Origin: a virus
Virus record (IMG/VR): IMGVR_UViG_3300017753_000014
Location: 1-45,794 of that record
Length of the DNA: 45,794 nt
Reading direction: 5' to 3' (one strand)
Part shown: piece after piece, positions 17,475 through 43,924 of the stretch
How positions within the stretch are numbered: the first letter of the stretch is position 1
Layout of the letters: the number at the start of each line of letters is the position of its first letter
Notes under the pieces: generated by a model
Told to the model about the DNA's origin: nothing
The model's input: only the letters and a program-made list of their open reading frames with translations
Database searches by the model: none
Program-made: the position numbers and the translations under genes

Positions 17475-18167
17475 TTATCTCCAGTTATTTTTCACCCAAT
17501 CTTTATCTGATTCGTGGGGTTTGGGATACCCATGAAAGACTGCTACTTTTGCGTTCTCATTTTGTTCAAATGTCCACAAGTTTTTACCGAATCGGGGTTC
17601 ATTTCTATCAAACCATTTGTAAGAAAATGTCCATTCGTCAGGAAAAGTTCTTACATTGTGTTTATGAAACTTCTTGTCCTTTCTCAGTAGTTCTGTTATT
17701 GCGTTTTGGTCGCCTTGTAGTCTGTACCAATAACTTCTATCTTTTGCAAATTCATCCCATATAATAGGTTTCATTGTTTCACTATGCCATTTCATAAGAC
17801 TTGAGTTATACCATATCATTCTACCATTAAAGTCTGATGTAATACTAAATGTCTTTTCATCTTCAAAATTTGCAAAACAATCTATATTTCTCATTAAAAC
17901 CACATCTAAATCCATATATAAATTAACACCTGATAACCCATTATCTGGGTGAAATAGTTGCATTTTGTTCCACCACCCTTGCATATCGTGTAACGGAAAC
18001 TGTTTTACGATTATATCACCTTCTAGAATTTTGTCAAGTTTAACATGGTCAGTAAAACAATAAAATTTATGTGGTACACTTAAATTTCTACTTACCATAT
18101 TGTATAGATTTTGCACATAAATCGGTTGATACTTTGTGCCATACAAGACACAACAAAAATTAATCAT
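17475..18167 (-). CDS. GT-A type glycosyltransferase
   Basis: 230 residues. DxD metal motif D86-L-D88 in NLYMDLDVVLM, with MQGWWNKMQLF just before and FHGYPKPHE at the end, as in GT8-like phage and bacterial glycosyltransferases. It transfers a nucleotide-activated sugar; acceptor unknown. Its ATG overlaps the stop of the preceding gene (ATGA). It is the last gene of the glycan cassette in transcription order. Confidence 0.8.
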   Translation of the reverse strand: MINFCCVLYGTKYQPIYVQNLYNMVSRNLSVPHKFYCFTDHVKLDKILEGDIIVKQFPLHDMQGWWNKMQLFHPDNGLSGVNLYMDLDVVLMRNIDCFANFEDEKTFSITSDFNGRMIWYNSSLMKWHSETMKPIIWDEFAKDRSYWYRLQGDQNAITELLRKDKKFHKHNVRTFPDEWTFSYKWFDRNEPRFGKNLWTFEQNENAKVAVFHGYPKPHESDKDWVKNNWR

Positions 18168-18382
18168 CTTAAATCGTTCTTCACTCTTTGTAATTGTTCT
18201 ATTATTTGATTTAATTTTAACTTACTTGTATCCATTTGGTCTCTACTTTCAAAGTAGACAGAATCACCTAATGTATATGCTTTACCTTGATACTTGTTTA
18301 TAAATGTCTGCAAGTCACTTATCATATTCTTTGCAACAGTTAATTGATATTCTATGGGATTATATTTTTCTTTAGCGCTCAT
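18164..18382 (-). CDS. small protein inside the glycan cassette
   Basis: 72 residues, helical: MSAKEKYNPIEYQLTVAK, then DTSKLKLNQIIEQLQRV. Unknown. AAGGAGTGAT precedes ATG and ATGA overlap couples it to the glycosyltransferase gene. Confidence 0.65.
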   Translation of the reverse strand: MSAKEKYNPIEYQLTVAKNMISDLQTFINKYQGKAYTLGDSVYFESRDQMDTSKLKLNQIIEQLQRVKNDLR

Positions 18383-19194
18383 ATCACTCCTTGTTGATTT
18401 AATAGTTTATATGCTGTACCATCTTCTATTTCGTCAAGAGTAAATTGTTGTTCTGTTATAAACTTCAACCACTCTAAAACTGTTTTCTTACCAGGTCTAA
18501 AAGGTCTTTCAACATACTTTGGGTCTCTAGATGCAACTGCCCAAGATACATTTCTACCATCAGTTATTACAGGCACTCTGTTTAATATTGCGTCTACAGA
18601 TGCTATGCTCATATTTGTTACTAAACAATGACAATCTTTTAATTGTTCTCTAATATCAGTACCCCACCATTCATTACCTGGTCTTGGTTTATTTCTTACT
18701 ATTATATCTCTTTTTGTGTGTTGTGTCAACTCTGATTTAACACCTGCTATCCATTCTTCTTGTGTCATATTATTAAGTTGTTGTGTTACAGTAGGTGATG
18801 AGGGACATATTAGTATATGTTTTGTATCACCAGTATACCAACCTTTAAACTCTGCATCTATACCTTGATTTACTAACTTTCGTAATCTAGAACCATCACC
18901 AACTTTACCTTTAACTGTATGCAAACCACCTTTGACTATTCTAAAATAAGTTTTATCTTCTTCATCAATACTAGGTGTCGGATATCTTGTTATAGGGTAA
19001 GTTATATAACCTACATCTATATAATACCATTCTTCTTTTTTTTCAACACATTGAGCAATTTCTTTTCTGTTCTGACCTGCTAATCCCCAAAAGAAGTGTA
19101 TTGGTCTGTCTTCGTCTTGCCAACCTTTTTCTATAAGAGGAAATATTTTATGAGATAAACATTTATCCCATTTTAATTTATGTGTTATAATCAT
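18379..19194 (-). CDS. GT-B-like capsule/surface polysaccharide protein
   Basis: 271 residues from MIITHKLKWDKCLSHK, the ATG with AGAGG 6 nt upstream. HILICPSSPTVTQQL begins the second half, and NMSIASVDAILNRVPVITD (about residue 198) is the NxSIAS...PV block of GT-B capsule-synthesis proteins. The same pattern occurs at 24482-25402 (YNSIASLESITVGVPAIV). The sugar and acceptor are unknown. Confidence 0.65.
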   Translation of the reverse strand: MIITHKLKWDKCLSHKIFPLIEKGWQDEDRPIHFFWGLAGQNRKEIAQCVEKKEEWYYIDVGYITYPITRYPTPSIDEEDKTYFRIVKGGLHTVKGKVGDGSRLRKLVNQGIDAEFKGWYTGDTKHILICPSSPTVTQQLNNMTQEEWIAGVKSELTQHTKRDIIVRNKPRPGNEWWGTDIREQLKDCHCLVTNMSIASVDAILNRVPVITDGRNVSWAVASRDPKYVERPFRPGKKTVLEWLKFITEQQFTLDEIEDGTAYKLLNQQGVI

Positions 19195-19819
19195 ATAATA
19201 CCTCTGCACTAACTCTTTTAACTTCTTTATATCCTATTTTATTGAATAGTATATTAAATTCATCAAATGTATTTCTCATTCGTTTTGATTTCATTTCAAG
19301 ATGTATAAAAGGTTTATTTTTACTTAATGTTTCTAAACAACCTGATAATATTTGATACTCAAAACCTTCTGCATCTACTTTTATATAATCTACATTTTCG
19401 AAATTCATACTATCAATACTTTTTATTTCTACATTGCCAGGTTTGTCTGGGTCTATATTTGTATTACCTGAATTATCTTTCTCTATATTTAAGAAACCTG
19501 TAGTCTGATGTGAACCTAATGCGAAAGGATATATTGTATAGTTATCAAAATCTTTCATATTTTGAACATAACATTCTCTTACTGAACTATTAGGTTCAAA
19601 TGCCCATATGTATTTTGTATCTGGTCGTTGTATCATGGGTCTAGACCACAAACCTACATGAGCACCCACATCTATGATATACTCAATCTTTCTTTTATTC
19701 TCCATATATTCAAAGAGAGTATCTCTTTGTTTCTTCTGATACTCTCCGTTTAAAATCCATCTCTCAAAGTGAGTATCACTAGAAGGGAAAAGATAATTGC
19801 CTATCTTCTTCTGTATCAT
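19178..19819 (-). CDS. FkbM-family methyltransferase
   Basis: 213 residues. SAM-binding IIDVGAHVGLWS (48-59), AFEPNSSVRECY, and the FkbM signature VDYIKVDAEGFEYQILSGC (143-161) with FIHLEMKS. FkbM enzymes O-methylate sugars or secondary metabolites, here probably a glycan made by the neighbouring transferases. The start overlaps the preceding gene end by 41 bp; its ribosome site is weak. Confidence 0.85.
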   Translation of the reverse strand: MIQKKIGNYLFPSSDTHFERWILNGEYQKKQRDTLFEYMENKRKIEYIIDVGAHVGLWSRPMIQRPDTKYIWAFEPNSSVRECYVQNMKDFDNYTIYPFALGSHQTTGFLNIEKDNSGNTNIDPDKPGNVEIKSIDSMNFENVDYIKVDAEGFEYQILSGCLETLSKNKPFIHLEMKSKRMRNTFDEFNILFNKIGYKEVKRVSAEVLYDYNT

Positions 19820-20060
19820 CTTCTTTTTTATCCTCTTTCAATAATTGTTTTTCTTCATTCCACCATGGTGCATCTGATGAATGTTGCACCCAGGGTGCAT
19901 CTGGTGTTTCTGAAGGTATAGAACTATGGTCTAATCCAGGTTCTACTGTTTCAGATTTTAAAACAACTGGTTTTGATGTGTAGTCGTTAAACTCTCTTCT
20001 TCTTACTTCTCCAGTAGTAGGATTTCTCTCATAGATATACTTCTTTTTATCATCTGCCAT
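19779..20060 (-). CDS. charged small protein of unknown function
   Basis: 93 residues, opening MADDKKKYIYERNPTTGEV, with SDAPWWNEEKQ and an acidic end EEDRQLSFPF. YIYERNPTTGEV and the terminal LSFPF resemble small proteins in other marine phage genomes. Function unknown. Confidence 0.7.
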   Translation of the reverse strand: MADDKKKYIYERNPTTGEVRRREFNDYTSKPVVLKSETVEPGLDHSSIPSETPDAPWVQHSSDAPWWNEEKQLLKEDKKEDDTEEDRQLSFPF

Positions 20061-20856
20061 GTTTATTCCTTTCTCTTCTAAATGTTTCTAAAAAATATTG
20101 TTTTCTTTTACCTTTAAAATCATAAAAATATGTACCTGGTTTAAAAACTCTAGCACTCTTCGGCCATATATCAAAACTACCACACTCTTCGCCACCGTAT
20201 TCTGTAAGTCTTACTTTACAACCTCTTATATTATAGGTCCCTAACTTAAATCTAAACTTTTTAGGTGGGTCTCTCTGTGGTAACAATCCTAATTCTTCTC
20301 TTAATATATTATCATATGTTCTCTGGTCACCATACCAATTCCAATGTGGGTCTTTATGTGCATCTGAAACCCACCTATCATACCTGTAACCAAAAAATCT
20401 TTTAACATCTTCTGTAACTTTCTTCACGACAATCATAGCATTATTTACTCGTGTGCCTTTTCTAATGGGTATCATTATATCAAAATCTTCATCAAACATT
20501 GTATCTAAATTTCTGTTTATGATATGGTCTGTACCACACATAATAATATTCTCTTCATAACCATTATCATCACATATAAATTTTGTTTCATTTAATACTT
20601 TTGATTCAATAATTTGTTTACCCTCTGTGTCAACTCTAAATGTTTCTAAATGTTCCATTTTAGGTATTATTGTTGTATTATCTGTAGATAATATTAGTTT
20701 ACCATTTTCTGAATTATGCCATAGAAAAGTATCATTTAGACATTGTAAAAATAAATGATAATTATATCTATTCTTTAAAACTAAATCTTTTACTTCGTCT
20801 GCTTCTTTCACATCTTTAAAATTAGGATTTTTAAAGAACGGAACTAGATACACCAT
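20050..20856 (-). CDS. putative glycosyltransferase
   Basis: 268 residues; start at 20856 (MVYLVPFFKNPNFKD) since GGAG lies 8 nt before it. NIIMCGTDHIINRNLDTMF (about 103-121) has the loop and acidic metal-binding residues of a GT-A fold, followed by AMIVVKK and WYGDQRTYDNIL, where the last pattern matches acceptor regions of GT8-like enzymes. Donor and acceptor unknown. It follows the WbpE-like aminotransferase gene and overlaps it. Confidence 0.65.
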   Translation of the reverse strand: MVYLVPFFKNPNFKDVKEADEVKDLVLKNRYNYHLFLQCLNDTFLWHNSENGKLILSTDNTTIIPKMEHLETFRVDTEGKQIIESKVLNETKFICDDNGYEENIIMCGTDHIINRNLDTMFDEDFDIMIPIRKGTRVNNAMIVVKKVTEDVKRFFGYRYDRWVSDAHKDPHWNWYGDQRTYDNILREELGLLPQRDPPKKFRFKLGTYNIRGCKVRLTEYGGEECGSFDIWPKSARVFKPGTYFYDFKGKRKQYFLETFRRERNKHGR

Positions 20857-21928
20857 TACCATTACTCCAATACTTTTGTAAAATGTCTATAACTTTTTCT
20901 TTATTAACGCCAGGATAAATTGGCAAACTTACTTGACTGTTTGATATTTTTTCTGTTACAGGTAAATCTATATCAACTATATTTTCAACATCATTACATA
21001 TAGTGCAATTCGTTTTACCCATTCTATATAATGGATTTGCATGTACAGGTTTATCGTAATGTTTTTTTAATTGTAAATCGTTTGAACATCTTTCAATTAA
21101 CTTATTTCTATCTCTGTGTAATATAGGGTAAATATGATAACTATGTTCAACGCCCTCTTGTGTATAACAATAGTCTAGATGTTTATTATAATAATCTGCG
21201 ATTTCTTGTTTCTCTCTTAGAACTTCAGGATAGTATTTTAATTTTAAACTAATAAATCTAGCATTTATATTAGACATTCTCATATTAAATCCAATATCAT
21301 TTTCTTTCCAACTTCTCTGTTCTTTCATTTCTTTTGCAAGACCTTCATCATCTGTTATTACACAACCTGCATCACCAAATGCTCCTATGCCTTTACCAGG
21401 ATAAAAACTAAAAGTACCTGCCTCACCAAATGTACCTACATGTTTACCATTAACTCTAGTACCGTGTGCTTGTGAGCAATCTTCTATTATTATAGATGTA
21501 GACTTTTTACTATTTATTCTTGTCATATCACAAGCATTACCATACATATGTACTGGTAGTATTACTTTATTATCAAAACCTACATTTAGTTTTTCTGGGT
21601 CCATACAATATGTTTTCTCATCAATATCAACAAATTCATTGTATGCACCTAAATATCTTATTGCTGATAATGTTGCAGTAAATGTATGAGAAACTGTGGT
21701 AACTTTATCACCTGAACGAATACCAGCAGAATATAATGCAATCGCTAATGCTGATGTACCACTATTTACTGCAACACAATACTTAGCACCAGTAAAATCT
21801 GCAAAGTCTTCTTCAAACTTTTCTGTACCAAATACAAAGTTACTTGTATTAAGTAACTCTTCGACCTCAGACATAAACTCTTCTTTCAAAGGTTTATGTA
21901 TCTCTGTCATATCGTAATAGGGTATCAT
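20831..21928 (-). CDS. DegT/DnrJ/EryC1/StrS sugar aminotransferase, WbpE-like
   Basis: 365 residues. Transfers an amino group to a 3-keto or 4-keto nucleotide sugar. SGTSALAIAL (56-65), IIEDCSQAHGT (147-157) and SFYPGKGIGAFGDAGC (174-189) with PLP lysine K179 are family hallmarks. With the dehydrogenase and acetyltransferase just upstream it matches the WbpB-WbpE-WbpD set that makes UDP-2,3-diacetamido sugars, so it is probably the 3-aminotransferase. ATGA overlap with the dehydrogenase gene. Confidence 0.9.
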   Translation of the reverse strand: MIPYYDMTEIHKPLKEEFMSEVEELLNTSNFVFGTEKFEEDFADFTGAKYCVAVNSGTSALAIALYSAGIRSGDKVTTVSHTFTATLSAIRYLGAYNEFVDIDEKTYCMDPEKLNVGFDNKVILPVHMYGNACDMTRINSKKSTSIIIEDCSQAHGTRVNGKHVGTFGEAGTFSFYPGKGIGAFGDAGCVITDDEGLAKEMKEQRSWKENDIGFNMRMSNINARFISLKLKYYPEVLREKQEIADYYNKHLDYCYTQEGVEHSYHIYPILHRDRNKLIERCSNDLQLKKHYDKPVHANPLYRMGKTNCTICNDVENIVDIDLPVTEKISNSQVSLPIYPGVNKEKVIDILQKYWSNGNGVSSSVL

Positions 21929-22854
21929 ACTTCTTTATCTATCCACTTCATAAGTTTTAGTGCCTTATCAACATCACTTATACATTCAATTTTGTGATTG
22001 TTAATACATTCTAAAAAATGTCTTTTACCATTCATTAGTGCTTCACTCGATTCTACTTTAGGGCATGTCATATTACCTAATTGATTTATATTATAATCTT
22101 CACCCACTTCACCAGTATCGTACACTTTTATTTTGTTTACATCTATGTCATCATATATAACAGATTTTTTAGTACCTGTCAAGATTATTTCTCTTTTCTT
22201 TACAGGACTTACCCAATTGCAGTTAATAGTAGCAGTAAACCCATTATTAAATTTTAAACATACAATAGACTGATTCGATTTATCGTTTACATGGTTGTTC
22301 TTTATAATAGATTTTTTAACTAATTCAATATCAGGATATAAATGATTTATTATAGCAAGGTCATGTATTGCTAAATCTTTTACAACATCAACATCTTTCT
22401 GAAATAAACCTAAACTAATTCTATGACTATCATAATATAATGGTTTACCTATGTCTATACTTTTAAGAGTTTGTATAGCAGGATGAAATAGAAAAGTATG
22501 GTCAACCATAATTCTTAATTTATCATTGATTGTTTTTCTATAGTCTGCTAGATTTAAGGTATCATCATAACTCATACACACAGGTTTTTCTACCCATACA
22601 TGTCTTCCATAATATATACTCAATTTTGCTAAATCTAAATGACTTTCAGGTTTCGTTGCTATTAATACTGCCTTTACATCATTATTGTGTTCTAATACAT
22701 TTGTTAAACTAACATCATACTTAAATTTACTACCATATAAATGTTTCGCTTTATCTAACTCGTTATGTGATTTATCTACTATGTGAGTAATTTTATCTGA
22801 AAATACCCTTGCAAGATTTCTACCCCAATACCCAAATCCAACTAACGCAATCAT
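21925..22854 (-). CDS. Gfo/Idh/MocA oxidoreductase, WbpB-like
   Basis: 309 residues. NAD-binding GFGYWG (6-11), VEKPVC with E89-K90-P91, and DLAIHDLAIINHL near 161-173. In WbpB the family oxidises the C3 hydroxyl of UDP-N-acetylglucosaminuronic acid. It overlaps the acetyltransferase gene and the aminotransferase gene by 4 bp on each side, which argues for one pathway. The missing step is UDP-GlcNAc 6-dehydrogenase (WbpA), presumably host-supplied. Confidence 0.85.
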   Translation of the reverse strand: MIALVGFGYWGRNLARVFSDKITHIVDKSHNELDKAKHLYGSKFKYDVSLTNVLEHNNDVKAVLIATKPESHLDLAKLSIYYGRHVWVEKPVCMSYDDTLNLADYRKTINDKLRIMVDHTFLFHPAIQTLKSIDIGKPLYYDSHRISLGLFQKDVDVVKDLAIHDLAIINHLYPDIELVKKSIIKNNHVNDKSNQSIVCLKFNNGFTATINCNWVSPVKKREIILTGTKKSVIYDDIDVNKIKVYDTGEVGEDYNINQLGNMTCPKVESSEALMNGKRHFLECINNHKIECISDVDKALKLMKWIDKEV

Positions 22855-23270
22855 TTTATTCTCCTTGCTGGGTTGCCGGCATAGATACCAGGTTCTTCTA
22901 TATCTTTTGTTACGACTGAACCAGCACCTATCGTTACATTGTCACAGATTGTGACAGGTAATATTGTTGAGTTAGAACCTATGTTGCAATTATTACCTAT
23001 ATTAGTTGGTAAAAAGTCTTTACTTAAATTACCATCTTTAAATTTATCGTTAGTGAACATGACACCATGAGCGATAAAACATTTATCCATGATTGTAACA
23101 TTCTCACATATAAAACTGTGTGATTGTATTCTTGTATTATCACCTATATAAGAACCTTTTTGTATTTCACAAAATGGTCCTATAAAAACATTATCACCTA
23201 TAACACATTCATACATATTAACAGGTTCTACAATTGTGTTTTCTTTTCCTATTTTACAGTCACGAATCAT
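22851..23270 (-). CDS. left-handed beta-helix acyltransferase, WbpD-like
   Basis: 139 residues with hexapeptide repeats (VIGDNVFIGPFCEI, TICDNVTIGAGSVVTKDI). Closely resembles WbpD: GVMFTNDKFKDG, TNIGNNCNIGSNSTI and YAGNPARRIK. It would N-acetylate the 3-amino group of the sugar nucleotide using acetyl-CoA. ATG is preceded by AAAGGTTAATAA. It is first of the trio in transcription order. Confidence 0.88.
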   Translation of the reverse strand: MIRDCKIGKENTIVEPVNMYECVIGDNVFIGPFCEIQKGSYIGDNTRIQSHSFICENVTIMDKCFIAHGVMFTNDKFKDGNLSKDFLPTNIGNNCNIGSNSTILPVTICDNVTIGAGSVVTKDIEEPGIYAGNPARRIK

Positions 23271-24489
23271 TTATTAACCTTTCATAAAAATTATCTTGAT
23301 TTACTATTTCATCTAGTGATAAATTTTCACCTAGATATTTGCCTATATTATTATAGTACCATAAATTTGTTTGATTAAAAAACTTGTTTGCATTATCATA
23401 ATTTATCTGACATCTACCACTAATTAATACAGTACCTCTTCCCCATTTGTTTTCTATAAGAAAACATAAACACTCACTAGACATAGAGATATCATTTTCT
23501 AATTGAGATACTTCTTCAAATGTTTTATTTTTTATATCATATTTTATTACTGTATTCCAATCTGTAACTTTTATGTAAGTTTCTTCTGCGTCAAATAATG
23601 TCATATCATTTTTATTATGTAACTCCTCACACATACTACTAAATGATTTAATAACTTTTTCTTTTTTAATAGTATTGTTTTTATGTAATGGTTTTATAAT
23701 CTTTCTCATTGTAGACCAATATTGTAAACCATTTTCAGACATTCTTGAATGAATAAAAGTTTCAGGCACAGGAAATACACATTCGACTTTATTTACATCT
23801 GCAAATCTTTTTATATCTGTTAAAGGTGGCACATACTCATTCATATAAAAGTTTTCTTCGTGTGAGTAATATATGTAAGAAGCAAATGGTACCCAAGTTT
23901 CAGGTTTAAATACTTTTAATTGCATCTTTAGTCTATCATAAATTATTGATTGTGCCTTTTTAGGCATATTTACATCACCTTTATTGCCTGCCCAATTTGC
24001 ATAAGTAAATTGCGATAACAGAACATCAACTTTTTTTAGTTGTAATTTTGTCAATTCAGATTCATCTCTAACTTGATAGTCATTCATATTAACTAAAGTT
24101 TTACCATTATTATGTTCATACACAAAGAAACTATCAAACCCATTTGATTGTACTTTAATTCTGCCCGTTGTCAATTCATAATATCTATTATTCTCTACTT
24201 CTAAAACTTTAAAACCTAAACGCTTAACAAAACTTACTACTTTTCTATCTAATGTTTTATGAAAAATAATTGTTTTCATTTCTGGGTCAGATATACTTTC
24301 TAAAAAAGGTATGTTAAAATGGTCTGGGTGTTCGTGTGATATATAAATCCAATCATACCCATACTGACTAATCTCTTTATCAAACTCTTTTAGTAAATTC
24401 CAACCATTTAAAAAGATACTACCTTTAGTCCAAGGGTCTACTAAAATGTTATCTAATAAAAATGATGAATGATTGAAAAATTTAATCAT
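23260..24489 (-). CDS. metallo-beta-lactamase-fold protein, CMAH-like without Rieske domain
   Basis: 409 residues. ISHEHPDHFN (50-59) gives the metal-site ligands H52, H54, D56, H57. DPWTKGSIFLNGW (18-30), VDVLLSQFTYANWAG, and KPETWVPFASYIYYSHEENF match the metallo-beta-lactamase part of CMP-N-acetylneuraminate hydroxylase (DPWLTGPAFARGW and PFAGYFVESHPSDKY). The Rieske iron-sulfur domain that precedes it in CMAH is missing, so true hydroxylation of sialic acid is unlikely unless another protein supplies electrons. GAGGAATATA precedes ATG. Confidence 0.75.
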   Translation of the reverse strand: MIKFFNHSSFLLDNILVDPWTKGSIFLNGWNLLKEFDKEISQYGYDWIYISHEHPDHFNIPFLESISDPEMKTIIFHKTLDRKVVSFVKRLGFKVLEVENNRYYELTTGRIKVQSNGFDSFFVYEHNNGKTLVNMNDYQVRDESELTKLQLKKVDVLLSQFTYANWAGNKGDVNMPKKAQSIIYDRLKMQLKVFKPETWVPFASYIYYSHEENFYMNEYVPPLTDIKRFADVNKVECVFPVPETFIHSRMSENGLQYWSTMRKIIKPLHKNNTIKKEKVIKSFSSMCEELHNKNDMTLFDAEETYIKVTDWNTVIKYDIKNKTFEEVSQLENDISMSSECLCFLIENKWGRGTVLISGRCQINYDNANKFFNQTNLWYYNNIGKYLGENLSLDEIVNQDNFYERLINDS

Positions 24490-25402
24490 TATATTCCTCT
24501 GCTATTTTTTCTCTATAAGGTTTAACATCACCTTGTAGACATTTTATAATTCTGTGAGCATAATCAGTTTTCATTTCTTCACCTGTAAACTGACACCACT
24601 TTAAATAATCTATGTGATTAAATATCTTTTCTGCACCTGCCCAATAAGGTTTTTCTATATTCTCAAGATTTGTTTCACTTAAATAACCACCTGCATTAGG
24701 TCCTAATACAATAGCAGGTACACCCACAGTTATTGACTCTAATGATGCTATACTATTGTATGTTACAATACAATGATATTTACCTTTTCTTAATTGGTCT
24801 TGTAAAGAATAGTTATTTCTTTCTGTTCTAGATAACTTCTTTCTCACTTCTACTTCTCTATCTGTCAATTTTTTAATTTTCTTAATTAATTTTTTTGTGT
24901 ATGTGTGTGCTACTCCGCCAAAGTGATTGAAAACTTTTTGACTAGGTGGTACTATCAATATTTTTTTCTTATCGTGATATTCTCTTTCTTTTAAATCCCA
25001 TCTTATAACATCTCTTCTGAAATCAAATACATTTTCAATTTCGTGTGCATGAAACTCTGTTCTCAATCTATCTTCAATCTCTTCTTTAGATAAATGATTT
25101 AAAGTTTGTAAGTTATTATATGCTATTCTATGCCATATCTTTGTAATTTGATTACCAAAATAACCTGTATCTATATACAGATAGTCAATGTTATTTTCTA
25201 TACAATCCCATATCAGAGGTGACTTGCCTAAACCACGAAACACACAAGGTGTTTTATCGTCAATATCGAAATCATCATCATTCATATATTTACCTAGACA
25301 ACCTTGAGAAAAACTATGAATGTATGGGTCTACTGCATTTTTACCATTTCTTTCTCTTTCATCTGCTTTTAATAATGACCAATCAACACATCTATATGAC
25401 AT
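24482..25402 (-). CDS. GT-B-like surface polysaccharide protein
   Basis: 306 residues. Resembles the proteins at 18379-19194 and 25392-26381: IDYLYIDTGYFGNQ near 72-85, ILIVPPSQKVFNHFGG starting the second half, and YNSIASLESITVGVPAIVLG near 217-236. The last block is the acceptor/nucleotide-sugar region of capsule synthesis glycosyltransferases. It probably transfers a sugar to a phage- or host-surface glycan. GGAAAGGATAAAAG precedes ATG. Confidence 0.65.
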   Translation of the reverse strand: MSYRCVDWSLLKADERERNGKNAVDPYIHSFSQGCLGKYMNDDDFDIDDKTPCVFRGLGKSPLIWDCIENNIDYLYIDTGYFGNQITKIWHRIAYNNLQTLNHLSKEEIEDRLRTEFHAHEIENVFDFRRDVIRWDLKEREYHDKKKILIVPPSQKVFNHFGGVAHTYTKKLIKKIKKLTDREVEVRKKLSRTERNNYSLQDQLRKGKYHCIVTYNSIASLESITVGVPAIVLGPNAGGYLSETNLENIEKPYWAGAEKIFNHIDYLKWCQFTGEEMKTDYAHRIIKCLQGDVKPYREKIAEEYND

Positions 25403-26381
25403 CTTTTATCCTTTCCCAATATTCACCACTCTCTAAATCTGGTAATCGCCAATGAGAGTAACCTAAGTTATTTAAAAATTGTTGTCTATTGATACTTATA
25501 TTGGGTTGTTCTATATCAGATAGTTCACCTGCCTTCATAGGTAAAAAATAACAATTGGGATTTGTTATGAATAATGGTTTACCTTCTATGATTGCAGGAC
25601 CTCCAGCAGTAGATGTAAATATGACAACTGCAAATGCCTTTCGTATCTCACCTACTAACCCAGGATAATGGTCTAGTGGTGAATGTATTGAAACATTTTT
25701 AGAAGTTTCAGAATATTCTTTCAGTCTTTGATAATCTGACTTATGTTCTATGTAAGACCTCGAGGAGTGTTGTCGTATAATTATAGGTCTATCTGTATGT
25801 TTTCTTAACTCATCTACAGTATCTATTGCCCATTGAGCAGCATTGACACCTAAACCAGAGTACCCACTTGAACCTCTATTGCAACAAATATATATGTGTT
25901 CGCCTTTTAAATTATAATCTTTCAGGTCTATTCTTTTTATTTTTTTCATTCTTTCCCATCTATCTGAAGGGCATTTGTCATTGAAGTATTTTGCCTTACC
26001 AGGATAGATATCTCCATATGCAACTCTAACGAATGAATTCTTTATATCGTATTCGTAATTATGATTTAAGTGAGAGTCTATACCATTTAATACATCATTA
26101 TCAAACATCCATATGTTACCACTCTCTTTGTATTTGTTCCAAACATTAACTCTTAATTGTAATCTCTCTTTTAACTTTTCTTGACCAGGTGCAACTCTTT
26201 GATAATTGAATATCAAAGCATGAGAGGTATTTTTAACATCAAAACCTTCTGCACCCTTATGATTTATTACATGAATGCCATCTTTAGATATAGGTTCACC
26301 AAATGCTTTCATTAACTCCATTTTAAAACCATACTTTACAGTCGTTGCATAGTAAATACACAAATCACGCATCATACTCAT
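25392..26381 (-). CDS. GT-B-like surface polysaccharide protein
   Basis: 329 residues from MSMMRDLCIYYATTVK; 26372-26381 hold several possible ATGs, 26381 follows GAGAGGACAG closely. IYICCNRGSSGYSGLG, RPIIIRQHSSRSYIE, and VVIFTSTAGGPAIIEGKPLF (about 264-283) are the pattern of a capsule-type transferase. It overlaps its neighbours on both sides, the methyltransferase before and the GT-B-like gene after. Confidence 0.6.
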   Translation of the reverse strand: MSMMRDLCIYYATTVKYGFKMELMKAFGEPISKDGIHVINHKGAEGFDVKNTSHALIFNYQRVAPGQEKLKERLQLRVNVWNKYKESGNIWMFDNDVLNGIDSHLNHNYEYDIKNSFVRVAYGDIYPGKAKYFNDKCPSDRWERMKKIKRIDLKDYNLKGEHIYICCNRGSSGYSGLGVNAAQWAIDTVDELRKHTDRPIIIRQHSSRSYIEHKSDYQRLKEYSETSKNVSIHSPLDHYPGLVGEIRKAFAVVIFTSTAGGPAIIEGKPLFITNPNCYFLPMKAGELSDIEQPNISINRQQFLNNLGYSHWRLPDLESGEYWERIKDVI

Positions 26382-27219
26382 CTGTCCTCTCACCATCTAA
26401 TATTGTTGTCTTTTTTGTCTTCTCATACATTTTTTGCAAATTAATGTATAATGTCTTATCTTTTCTATCACCTGCGTACTTCATCTGTAGAGGATATTGA
26501 AACTCTTGTTGTTTTATTTTTTTAGCAATGCACATTATAATTACTTCTTCAGGTTTGTTAGGGTACATCTTTCTATTCTCTGGGTCAGGTATAAAGTAAT
26601 CTAAGTTATGCTCTACAAGTTCACCTATATCTCTCGTTGTACCCTTAACACCTATCAAGTCACTTATTACCCACCCATTTTGATGAAATATATCTGTGTA
26701 TGCAGTAGGGTTAAAGTTCCAAAAACCATGATTTATCTTTGATGCTGGTGCTGCCATAAAAATCGTACCATTCATTTTAGTCATTTGCATAATATTTTTA
26801 AATGCTTGACCTACATTAAAACAATGTTCTAAAGTTCCTACATCTAAAATTAAATCATAGTTTGGTTTATAATCTATTGGCACAGGTTCATTTAAATCTA
26901 ATATTAACTCAACACCTAAATGAGAATACACATCAAATACATCTATATCCATATTAAAGTAATTAAAGAAACTTTCTGCTGTGTATAGTTGTTTTGTACC
27001 ATCTTCTTCTAGTTTTGCTCGTAACTTTTTATGCAAACTAGTATTAACAAATTTTTCTCTAACTTCTAATTTACTTGTATCTATGCCTTGATTTTTAAAC
27101 ATAGTTTCTGTAACAAGTAAATCAGGATAACCTAGTGTTGCAACAGTCAATCTTTTATCACTTTGCAAATTCTTCAAAGTTCTACATACTGTTCTAAAAA
27201 AATACCTATCTATTGACAT
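26365..27219 (-). CDS. SAM-dependent methyltransferase-like protein
   Basis: 284 residues. YDLILDVGTLEHCFNVGQA (about 120-138) matches motif IV/V of class I methyltransferases, followed by MTKMNGTIFMAAPASKIN and NPTAYTDIFHQNGW. The glycine-rich SAM motif is less clear (TVATLGYPDLLV near 25-36). It is probably a sugar or glycan methylase because it sits among the transferases. GGATTAAA precedes ATG. Confidence 0.65.
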   Translation of the reverse strand: MSIDRYFFRTVCRTLKNLQSDKRLTVATLGYPDLLVTETMFKNQGIDTSKLEVREKFVNTSLHKKLRAKLEEDGTKQLYTAESFFNYFNMDIDVFDVYSHLGVELILDLNEPVPIDYKPNYDLILDVGTLEHCFNVGQAFKNIMQMTKMNGTIFMAAPASKINHGFWNFNPTAYTDIFHQNGWVISDLIGVKGTTRDIGELVEHNLDYFIPDPENRKMYPNKPEEVIIMCIAKKIKQQEFQYPLQMKYAGDRKDKTLYINLQKMYEKTKKTTILDGERTDEYDA

Positions 27220-27220
27220 T

Positions 27221-27895
27221 TTAATCCATATCTATTTGGGTTGCTTCACTATAATGTGTAAACCATTCATCTGAATAGTCTACTTCTTCAAATTCAGAAA
27301 ACCAAGGACCGCCTTCTGTGAAATGTATATTCTTTACATCTTCTTTATATTCATACTCTCCTGCTAACCAGTTCCATTCTAATGGTAAATCACCTATGAG
27401 TTTATCACTCTCTAACCATTTGAATTGATGTAACTCTAAACCTGATGCTCTATTCACATAGTTAGGAGTTAATGGGGTACACTTCTTGCAATTCATTAAC
27501 ATAAAACTAGACCAGTTCTTTTTAGGATAAACTGTTTGTTTTTGATTTAAAAATTTAACTTTACTCTTTGGTGTGTAATCGTGTTTGCAAACTTGCACAG
27601 CGTATCTATCATCTCTTAATCGCCACAGTTCGTTTATGTCTGCCTTCATTAACATATCACAATCCATAAACAATGCCCAACCTTGATAGTTCATTAAGTG
27701 TGGTGTTATAAATCTACTAAAAGAAAACTCTGTACTAGACAAAGCATTTCTTTCTCTAATAAAATCGTCTTTGATATTTTCTAAATAGATAGGTGTTATA
27801 GCAACAGGTTTTGTACTGTGTTTTAAAATACTATGTGTTAATACACTATGTGCAACTTTTTCTTTTGTATCATAACCTATGAATACATTAATCAT
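27221..27895 (-). CDS. GT-A type glycosyltransferase
   Basis: 224 residues. MINVFIGYDTKEKVA at the start, ALFMDCDMLM with D78-x-D80, and NWSSFMLMNCKKC place it with GT8-like enzymes. LPLEWNWLAGEY and IHFTEGGPWF are the distal conserved pieces. A similar but distinct enzyme is at 17475-18167. It is coupled to the small gene upstream by ATGA. Confidence 0.75.
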   Translation of the reverse strand: MINVFIGYDTKEKVAHSVLTHSILKHSTKPVAITPIYLENIKDDFIRERNALSSTEFSFSRFITPHLMNYQGWALFMDCDMLMKADINELWRLRDDRYAVQVCKHDYTPKSKVKFLNQKQTVYPKKNWSSFMLMNCKKCTPLTPNYVNRASGLELHQFKWLESDKLIGDLPLEWNWLAGEYEYKEDVKNIHFTEGGPWFSEFEEVDYSDEWFTHYSEATQIDMD

Positions 27896-28050
27896 TTTGT
27901 AAACCTGTGCAATCTATGATAAAGTGTTTCTAGTTCTGCTTTCTTCTCTTTTGGTATTGTTATGTCGTCTTGTGATTGTACTAAAAATACAATCATTTCT
28001 TTAAGTAACGCAACATCTGATTGTGAGAATACTGGTTTACTTACTTTCAT
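27892..28050 (-). CDS. small protein, 52 aa
   Basis: Starts MKVSKPVFSQSDVALLKEM, then EKKAELETLYHRLHRFTK at the end; helical and basic. GGGAGTGTTGTTA precedes ATG, it overlaps the cupin gene end by 14 bp and the glycosyltransferase start by ATGA. Its place between coupled genes supports reality. Function unknown. Confidence 0.7.
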   Translation of the reverse strand: MKVSKPVFSQSDVALLKEMIVFLVQSQDDITIPKEKKAELETLYHRLHRFTK

Positions 28051-28393
28051 TAACAACACTCCCTACTGTTTCTCTTTCAATATCACCATGGTCAAACTCT
28101 GCCCAATATAATTCAAATGCTACACCATCTTCTAAACCTATGAACTGATGATACTCATTTGGTTTTACTTGTGTAAAATCACCAGGTCCTAATATTGTTT
28201 CATCTACCAAATCATAATCATTCTTCCAAACTCTTACAATCATTTTACCAGATTCACAAAAGAACCCATTCCATTTAAACTTATGTTTATGTTTAGAACA
28301 TGATATATCTTTTTTAAATTCTATTCTATGAAACTCAAGAACTCCGTTTGCGTGAATAAGTTCTGTTTGTCCCCATATTTTTCCTGCTTTCAT
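28037..28393 (-). CDS. cupin-domain protein
   Basis: 118 residues. H35-x-H37 in CSKHKHKFKW and H82 in PNEYHQFIG give a metal-binding cupin barrel, with GPGDFTQV between. Single-domain cupins of this type include sugar epimerases/isomerases and regulators; within the glycan cassette a nucleotide-sugar or sugar-phosphate isomerase role is most likely. It could also be an unrelated binding protein. Confidence 0.75.
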   Translation of the reverse strand: MKAGKIWGQTELIHANGVLEFHRIEFKKDISCSKHKHKFKWNGFFCESGKMIVRVWKNDYDLVDETILGPGDFTQVKPNEYHQFIGLEDGVAFELYWAEFDHGDIERETVGSVVNESK

Positions 28394-29151
28394 GGTAACA
28401 TTTCTCCTGCATCTTTTCTTGCTTTACCTTTTAGATGGTCCATATATTCTGCCATTGGCGTATCTGGCCAAGGATTACCGACTCTTCTAATTGTAGGTGA
28501 TAAATTAAATTGAGGTACATTCTTTAAATATTTTTTTCTAACAACATCAAATAAATAACTATCGTGCCACTCATCTTCTTTGACAAGATTTAAATTTGTG
28601 TAGATGTCTTCAAATCTTGATACAAATAATCTAGTTTCATGGTTTCGTAAATTATATCCTACAAAACCACACTCACTATAATAAGTTGGTCTGTCTATAA
28701 ATGATATTGCATATTCACCAGGTAAAAATTTATCTACAACTTCTTTAGCAGTTATTGTCTTTTTGAAAACTACATCTGCATCTATCCAAAAAACATAATC
28801 ATATGGATGTCTTGGTGCTAACATGGCATCACATTTTGCAAATACTTTATAACTAAATCTTATTGCATCTTTTTTGTAATTTGTTCCGTGAATTATTTTA
28901 TCGGGTCTATCTTTTTCTACACTATCAACATTGAGTTCACTCATTCTTGATTGAAATTTTCTTAACTTGTTACCAACTTTACCTTCCCAAATATTTCTAT
29001 AGAAAATATTATCTCTAATTGGAAAATCTTCAGGCACCCAACCTTCATGGTATACTATTAAGTCGAATGGCCAATTGTAGGATTTTAAAAATCTATGTGC
29101 GTAATATTCGTAAAGTTTTTTATTGAAACTAGTTACAATTGCTATCTTCAT
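28390..29151 (-). CDS. GT-A type glycosyltransferase
   Basis: 253 residues. The DxD motif is D124-A-D126 in VFWIDADVVF, followed by ECGFVGYNLRNHETRLF. The N-terminus MKIAIVTSFNKKLYEYY fits a nucleotide-sugar binding start. It is the first glycosyltransferase in transcription order and its ATG, with AGGACAGGAA before it, lies inside the RuvC-like gene end. Confidence 0.75.
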   Translation of the reverse strand: MKIAIVTSFNKKLYEYYAHRFLKSYNWPFDLIVYHEGWVPEDFPIRDNIFYRNIWEGKVGNKLRKFQSRMSELNVDSVEKDRPDKIIHGTNYKKDAIRFSYKVFAKCDAMLAPRHPYDYVFWIDADVVFKKTITAKEVVDKFLPGEYAISFIDRPTYYSECGFVGYNLRNHETRLFVSRFEDIYTNLNLVKEDEWHDSYLFDVVRKKYLKNVPQFNLSPTIRRVGNPWPDTPMAEYMDHLKGKARKDAGEMLP

Positions 29152-42872: not shown

Positions 42873-42915
42873 AAAAAAATATTTATAAGGGCGCCCCACA
42901 CCGTAAAGCGCCCTT
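42873..42915 (-). terminator. rho-independent terminator overlapping a late promoter
   Basis: Minus strand AAGGGCGC, 13-nt loop, GCGCCCTT, then ATAAATATTTTTTT. The stem is GC-rich in an AT-rich genome and ends in seven Ts. It follows the gene at 42929-43234. The U-tract side contains TATAAATA, so termination and late initiation share bases. Confidence 0.8.
42880..42887 (-). promoter_or_regulatory. T4-type late promoter inside the terminator tail
   Basis: TATAAATA on the minus strand, beginning at the last stem base of the terminator. It is 60 nt before the structural gene at 42359-42820. Context is unusual but a perfect consensus. Confidence 0.65.
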
Positions 42916-42928
42916 GGTTAAATTAATA

Positions 42929-43234
42929 TTAAGCGTCTGCCGAAGCAGTTAACGCCACTAGTGTTTCAAATTGTATTCTACTTGCACGACCTCCTGTGCC
43001 AGTAGTTTTTAAGTTCCAACCGACATGAGAAACTTTACCACTTTGTGACTCTGCGTCTTTAAAATTAAAAAGACCTATAGTTACTCCATCGATAAGATTA
43101 TCTTCTGTTGCATTGTTGAATAATTTGCCCGAAGCGGCAGCACCCATATTCGCTGCTTTCGGTTCTTTTTGCACTTGTGCCAATGCCCATAGTGGGGCAC
43201 TACCGTGTGCATCTGTGTTTGACCAACTTGACAT
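42929..43234 (-). CDS. virion structural protein, small
   Basis: 101 residues. WSNTDAHGSAPLWALAQV at the start and GWNLKTTGTGGRASRIQFET near the end (70-89); Ala/Gly/Asn-rich beta type. The GTGGRAxRxxxETLV segment resembles a small structural protein of marine T4-like phages I recall. It is followed directly by a strong terminator, so expression is probably high. GGGAGAGAATGTT precedes ATG. Confidence 0.75.
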   Translation of the reverse strand: MSSWSNTDAHGSAPLWALAQVQKEPKAANMGAAASGKLFNNATEDNLIDGVTIGLFNFKDAESQSGKVSHVGWNLKTTGTGGRASRIQFETLVALTASADA

Positions 43235-43278: not shown

Positions 43279-43353
43279 TTAAATTTCTGCACAAGCGTAA
43301 CAGTTGATTTCTAATCCTACTGCTACTTCTTTTATTACTGGACTTTTCCACAT
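43279..43353 (-). CDS. PqqA-like tiny peptide, 24 aa
   Basis: Peptide MWKSPVIKEVAVGLEINC plus YACAEI. It matches the PqqA precursor pattern: W near the N-terminus, P, E, G and E15-I-N-C-Y19, i.e. E-x3-Y, the pair crosslinked in PQQ biosynthesis. Cysteines 18 and 21 flank the tyrosine, unlike PqqA. AAAGGAGATTTATT precedes ATG and two late promoters lie upstream. Codons were checked one by one. No PqqB-E partner is in the window. It may be a RiPP precursor or a virion peptide. Confidence 0.75.
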   Translation of the reverse strand: MWKSPVIKEVAVGLEINCYACAEI

Positions 43354-43387
43354 AATAAATCTCCTTTACTTGTTTTGTTAAAAAAGT

Positions 43388-43431
43388 ATTTATAAACTCT
43401 ATAAACACTATTCTATCTATACTATTTATAG
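43388..43431 (-). promoter_or_regulatory. tandem late promoters for the PqqA-like gene
   Basis: Two TATAAATA boxes on the minus strand at 43395-43388 and 43431-43424. The first is 35 nt before the peptide gene's ATG, the second follows directly after the stop of the gene at 43433-43924. Both fit T4 late promoters. Confidence 0.7.
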
Positions 43432-43432
43432 T

Positions 43433-43924
43433 TTATTTGAATCCTAAACCTTTTAATTCTCTTATAACTTGACTCGCATTTTGAAATCTAATACCTATAC
43501 CACCCTTCGTTGTAAACTCTTTTGTATTTCTACCATAGTCATCTATTAGTATAGACGGTTTACCACCCACCTTTGCATATAATTGTTTTTCACTTCTTTG
43601 AACTAGATTAACTCTACCTCTAGATATGCGTAAGTTTTTTTGAATCCAAGAACTCTTACCTGGTTTACAATTTGGGTCTTCTTGTGAAGCAGCAGATAAT
43701 ATATGTGGGTCATACTTTTCTATAAACCGCCATAAGTTTTTGCCGTCATTTAACCATGGCATATTATACCAAAACTTAGGTTTGGCAATTACAGGATCCC
43801 ATCTTTCGTTTTTAGGAATTTGCATCCACTTATTAAGTGTAATGCCCAAAGTATTTTTGATGTTTTTCTCGAAATCACAAAGAACGCCATCCATATCACA
43901 ATAGATTCTAGTATAGTTAGACAT
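43433..43924 (-). CDS. HAD-like 5'-deoxynucleotidase (NT5C type)
   Basis: 163 residues. CDMDGVLCDF (9-18) gives catalytic D10 and D12; HILSAASQED and GKSSWIQKNL, and PSILIDDYGRNTKEF are the other HAD motifs. NT5C-type enzymes dephosphorylate nucleoside monophosphates, helping nucleotide recycling. It follows TAATG from the gene before. It fits the phage nucleotide metabolism set (ThyX, Nrd). Confidence 0.8.
   Translation of the reverse strand: MSNYTRIYCDMDGVLCDFEKNIKNTLGITLNKWMQIPKNERWDPVIAKPKFWYNMPWLNDGKNLWRFIEKYDPHILSAASQEDPNCKPGKSSWIQKNLRISRGRVNLVQRSEKQLYAKVGGKPSILIDDYGRNTKEFTTKGGIGIRFQNASQVIRELKGLGFK

Follow-up and report, generated by a model that had tools for sequence, protein, structure and literature searches.

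The window, the whole 45,794-base stretch of an IMG/VR virus record analysed here, carries a real 24-codon gene whose product is, by its sequence, PqqA, the precursor peptide of the cofactor PQQ. Genes of this kind are conserved across phages under purifying selection, as gauged from their pN/pS ratios. In the explanation that we favour, and consider likely, the phage makes a host-matched PqqA late in infection, as the consumed peptide substrate for the host's PqqBCDE; that the gene is expressed, that host enzymes modify its product, that PQQ rises and that the phage benefits are the parts of this proposal that we infer. A widespread and almost unannotated phage gene would in this way be tied to the cofactor pathway for methanol and alcohol oxidation in marine and lake waters.

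Translation of the ORF gives W2, P5, E15 and Y19, and a strong Shine-Dalgarno site (AAAGGAG) precedes it, both as a previous reading of this DNA made without database searches (hereafter the sequence-only reading) had described; the copies in related phages also have strong ribosome-binding sites. The peptide scores 23.4 bits against TIGR02107, the NCBIfam PqqA equivalog (cut-off 20; model positions 1–21 of 21), and 21.2 bits over the full length of Pfam PF08042 (PqqA; cut-off 21.1), and a six-frame search of the entire record returned this ORF as the sole PqqA match (E 1.7e-4). Since both family cut-offs are passed, it can be called PqqA by sequence, beyond mere similarity, which is a closer kinship than the 'PqqA-like' gene first proposed; a chance ORF was rejected. 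The E-x3-Y spacing of the Glu and Tyr that contribute the atoms of PQQ is present as E15 and Y19. C18 and C21, which had been taken to set the peptide apart from PqqA, do not do so, as both are standard in alphaproteobacterial PqqA. The window peptide had no PqqA family match in PHROGs. The usual, non-obligatory linkage to pqqBCDE is absent, and we agree with the sequence-only reading that no partner enzyme lies in the window; several of the bacterial genomes considered below also carry a second, unlinked pqqA, so such linkage does not define the family.

Table 1. Features at the pqqA locus of the window (positions are those of the whole stretch).
Feature	Position	Strand	Remarks
pqqA, 24 codons, peptide MWKSPVIKEVAVGLEINCYACAEI	43279..43353	−	TIGR02107 above cut-off; E15 and Y19 are the predicted cross-link residues
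Shine-Dalgarno region AAAGGAGATTTATT	43354..43367	−	from sequence
Proximal late-promoter-like box TATAAATA	43387..43394	−	kept in relatives with or without pqqA
Distal second box TATAAATA	43423..43430	−	window only; missing from the other four pqqA-bearing relatives
101-aa gene downstream of pqqA	42929..43234	−	no family match; leader TGAGTACC...GGGAGAGAAT
Terminator-like hairpin and U-rich tail, closing the pqqA/101-aa unit	42879..42914	−	
NT5C-like 5'-3' deoxyribonucleotidase, upstream neighbour	43433..43924	−	phrog_2643, E 1.2e-25

The nearest named genome to the window is that of Pelagibacter phage Mosig EXVC030M (Kyanoviridae, T4-like), with 76% nucleotide identity in the RNR/primase block. 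A long series of glycosyltransferase-, aminotransferase- and methyltransferase-like genes at 17475–29151 is apparently a surface-sugar cluster in a T4-like phage, and a similar block is found in Mosig. Homologues of the NT5C-like deoxyribonucleotidase upstream of pqqA occur in Melnitz and HTVC008M.

Two copies of the octamer TATAAATA do stand about 34–77 nt upstream of pqqA, as had been noticed at the outset. Across the whole window the octamer is no commoner than expected by chance (10 observed vs. 13 expected), so that the argument for a promoter rests on conserved position, and here the proximal box is retained at the locus in 20 of 21 relatives, which bears out the late-type promoter first suggested. 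Immediately 3' of the 101-aa gene there is a strong hairpin (−20.7 kcal/mol, z −3.8) with a U-rich run behind it, and pqqA and this gene apparently share one transcript. The hairpin is terminator-like, in keeping with the terminator claimed for the downstream gene; the label 'structural gene' is unproven, because the 101-aa protein matched no family in Pfam, NCBIfam or PHROGs; its AlphaFold model (pLDDT 45) is too poor for use.

Using the 101-aa gene as a probe independent of pqqA, we located 21 syntenic relatives, three of which have pqqA in the same place. Together with the window itself and one contig found through the PqqA pattern (L109), this gives five contigs with pqqA and 18 without. 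In all but one of the pqqA-less relatives TATAAATA lies 63–65 nt before the 101-aa gene, as against 151–155 nt in the three pqqA-bearing ones, while the leader of the 101-aa gene is retained in both groups. The two groups differ by about 90 nt, made up of a ribosome-binding site and the gene and cleanly inserted between a late-promoter box and an existing late-gene leader. The syntenic pqqA copies have a pN/pS of 0.29 and are flanked by phage genes; no second-site pqqA was found on the contigs of the pqqA-less relatives, which are fragments.

Viral pqqA extends well beyond this locus. We scanned viral contigs with degenerate DNA patterns, one for each PqqA type. The alpha-type pattern (G-x-E-[IV]-N-C-Y-x-C-A), to which the window peptide belongs, was found in at least 120 viral contigs, and nearly all of the matches listed are 24–27-codon PqqA genes with a ribosome-binding site; W, P and E9 occur in 91 of 91 unique genes among them, though the pattern does not require these residues. 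A second pattern, W-x2-P-x7-GFEVTMY, likewise matched at least 120 viral contigs. For the matches listed, the alpha-type has a pN/pS of 0.21 over all codons and 0.47 over those that the pattern leaves free; the corresponding values for the second type are 0.20 and 0.34. The E-x3-Y pair, present in the 91 unique alpha-type and 108 unique beta-type viral genes listed, is fixed there by the search patterns; it is also kept in the relatives that were found through the neighbouring gene, i.e. without any PqqA pattern. A third type, recovered with the pattern GMEINMY, occurs in seven viral contigs (L327–L333) and reads MAWxxPKVAEVxxGMEINMY...

Among the matches listed, the immediate neighbours of first-type genes form 48 distinct contexts and those of second-type genes 91, and several Mosig-like proteins are found in only a minority of the short viral pqqA loci, pointing to the involvement of many different phages. 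Queries for PqqB, PqqC and PqqD gave no match in 1.96 Mb of pqqA-bearing viral loci and did find host operons, and PqqE is absent from 50 longer pqqA-bearing viral contigs; these contigs are thus not misassigned host operons. One of the 50, the 72-kb contig IMGVR_UViG_3300025120_009955 (L211/L317), holds a full PQQ alcohol dehydrogenase as well as pqqA. There, a formate-dehydrogenase-like alpha subunit adjoins the alcohol dehydrogenase; the contig may come from a C1-metabolism phage or may include host DNA. As a host metabolic gene lying inside phage genomes and conserved across phages, viral pqqA is a candidate auxiliary metabolic gene.

Cultured phages carry the gene too. A tblastn search with the window (alpha-type) peptide found no match among named phages; the same query does find pqqA on plasmids, which indicates that the search works and that the named phages have no alpha-type match. 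Pelagiphage genomes were one place in which the sequence-only reading would have sought the gene, and the closest cultured ones, Mosig and HTVC008M, have no pqqA. A GFEVTMY-type query, in turn, gave 12 matches among 50,697 named phage records, nine of which infect Methylophilales methylotrophs: Venkman, P19250A, MEP301, MEP401, MEP402 and four Melnitz records. (This is a count of carriers; the taxonomy lists further methylophage names.) The other three are one environmental podovirus and two draft Acinetobacter records, the latter possibly chromosomal DNA. Venkman and P19250A belong to a single genus-level cluster (PMC8163748), MEP401 and MEP402 are Zobellviridae and Melnitz belongs to the Kyanoviridae, so that the nine records represent about four lineages. 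When 2.6 kb of MEP401 was compared by blastn, MEP402 matched broadly, while the other methylophages and the environmental podovirus matched only at the ~70-bp pqqA, with 80–86% identity.

In the records, these methylophage genes are mostly unannotated or overlain by an opposite-strand ORF, and the open literature on these methylophages mentions no phage pqq gene. In Melnitz (MZ577097.1, 76134–76208, plus strand; L169:3135–3209) the unannotated pqqA, encoding MKWTKPVAQEMRFGFEVTMYIMTR and preceded by an AAGGAGG site, lies directly before tRNA-Leu, where the record has an opposite-strand ORF. In Venkman, P19250A, MEP301, MEP402 and MEP401 (L321–L325) pqqA is uncalled between annotated genes, making these records candidates for re-annotation. 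The sequence-only reading had looked to conservation of E-x3-Y and of the late promoter across related phages for support; purifying selection, the E-x3-Y pair in about 200 unique viral genes among the matches listed, the conserved promoter and the recurrence in nine methylotroph phage isolates all speak for it, and taken as a whole its interpretation is partly supported.

What, then, is the host of the window phage? Scanning bacterial genomes with an AT-biased pattern led to five marine Alphaproteobacteria, four of which have a true pqqE (about 560 bits). Of the 28 genomes in their order, 22 contain PqqA and 19 score above cut-off for a PQQ alcohol dehydrogenase. The PqqA of the alphaproteobacterial operon, MWKSPVVREVAVGLEINCYACAEI, is two residues from the window peptide, and a second, unlinked PqqA, MWKSPVVKEVAVGLEINCYACAEI, found beside a LysR gene in several genomes, is one residue from it; this unlinked cellular copy is also the closest DNA match of the window pqqA (61 of 69 nt). 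Four of the stand-alone copies (L122, L123, L124, L126) lie 3' of a LysR-like gene, away from the pqq operon, and are convergent with a transporter-like gene that reads as an EmrB-type MFS protein; some alphaproteobacterial genomes hold both the operon and the stand-alone pqqA. Given near-identical PqqA in these bacteria and the lack of pqqA in the SAR11 phages Mosig and HTVC008M, the likeliest host would be a PQQ-making alphaproteobacterium rather than SAR11, with the qualification that so short a peptide has a weak phylogenetic signal. PqqA type also tracks host elsewhere, the GFEVTMY-type being that of the Methylophilales phages.

In PQQ biosynthesis, PqqE, together with PqqD, forms the cross-link between Glu and Tyr in PqqA; each PQQ costs one PqqA peptide, whereas the enzymes are catalytic. 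When a lytic phage shuts off or degrades host mRNA, the precursor would therefore be the first component of the pathway to run short. A pqqA captured from a PQQ-making host and expressed late in infection could furnish the PqqE/PqqD, PqqB and PqqC of the infected cell with this peptide, so that a single 75-bp gene would restore the precursor, an economical route to continued PQQ synthesis. The extra PQQ would let periplasmic quinoprotein alcohol dehydrogenases keep feeding respiration while virions form. As the same gene occurs in hundreds of phage contigs and nine methylophage isolates, many phages probably top up the host PQQ supply during infection, which suggests phage control of PQQ respiration through supply of a consumed substrate and not of enzymes. 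Against PqqA supply it can be said that the locus has more contigs without pqqA than with it (18 vs. five), that the nearest named relative of the window, which lacks the gene, infects SAR11, and that the phylogenetic signal of so short a peptide is weak. With regard to dosage, PMC7936290, in the part that cites work on Gluconobacter, reports that PQQ goes up when single pqq genes are overexpressed, pqqB ranking first and pqqA next.

The sequence-only reading had kept a phage RiPP, a virion peptide and a decoy in play, and each of these is less likely than plain PqqA supply. A decoy would occupy PqqD/PqqE, lower host PQQ and redirect metabolism; an excess of substrate analogue could indeed titrate PqqD, and no pqq enzymes accompany viral pqqA. 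We nevertheless think this unlikely, since the glutamate and tyrosine that react, along with the entire recognition region, are preserved under purifying selection where an inhibitor could dispense with either residue, a PQQ dehydrogenase accompanies pqqA on one phage contig, and methylotroph phages would be damaging their host's main energy route. Somewhat less probable again is a different RiPP, in which the peptide, once cross-linked by host PqqE, would itself act as a virion component, signal or antimicrobial. Its appeal lies in the apparent co-transcription of the window pqqA with a late gene and in one study in which a PqqA-annotated family was co-expressed with defence systems (PMC11118758), but the viral sequences follow host PqqA types and do not diverge to a phage-specific form, and the highly varied contexts contain no fixed virion partner.

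The patchy presence of pqqA at the window locus would also suit a passive passenger, a small host gene taken up by chance and of no benefit. This is very unlikely in view of the purifying selection on the gene, its strong ribosome-binding sites and its recovery, several times over, in unrelated lineages whose only common DNA in the tested region is pqqA. That the gene is misassigned bacterial DNA or a chance ORF is almost certainly wrong: IMG/VR contigs can include host DNA and the ORF has just 24 codons, but the HMM E-values speak against chance, phage genes flank pqqA in the syntenic relatives and sequenced phage isolates carry it. Host contamination was rejected because no viral copy is adjoined by pqqB, pqqC or pqqD. 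Beyond the supply of PqqA itself, we lean, by a little, towards a broader reading, in which stand-alone pqqA is a hallmark of phages of PQQ-dependent planktonic bacteria, repeatedly captured from hosts and missed because it falls below annotation length limits. If so, infected cells would in general be limited by the peptide substrate, and PqqA type could serve as a host marker.

The window element itself is of a known kind, as viral PqqA was reported earlier from Lake Baikal, where it occurs with a methanol dehydrogenase in methylotroph phage VP_266 (PMC7678222), and is listed among reservoir viral genes (PMC13188868). Within the open literature covered by this analysis, what appears to be new is the breadth of the gene, its host-matched types, its clean insertion and its recurrence across cultured methylophages. 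Compared with bacterial PqqA (TIGR02107/PF08042), the window peptide is alike in length, in W-x2-P, in the G-x-E-x3-Y core and in matching over its whole length, whereas its gene is on its own in a late unit of a phage without pqqB–E. Mosig EXVC030M, although the closest named genome, is complete and has no PqqA. The Methylophilales phages Melnitz, Venkman, MEP301, MEP401/402 and P19250A, whose hosts are methylotrophs, resemble the window in having a stand-alone pqqA with its own ribosome-binding site, but they carry the GFEVTMY-type peptide and belong to other phage lineages, with the gene at other loci. VP_266 likewise has a phage-borne PqqA, which was read there as an auxiliary metabolic gene serving PQQ supply; it infects a freshwater methylotroph and also encodes a methanol dehydrogenase, whereas the window, without a dehydrogenase, holds an alpha-type copy in a T4-like marine phage.
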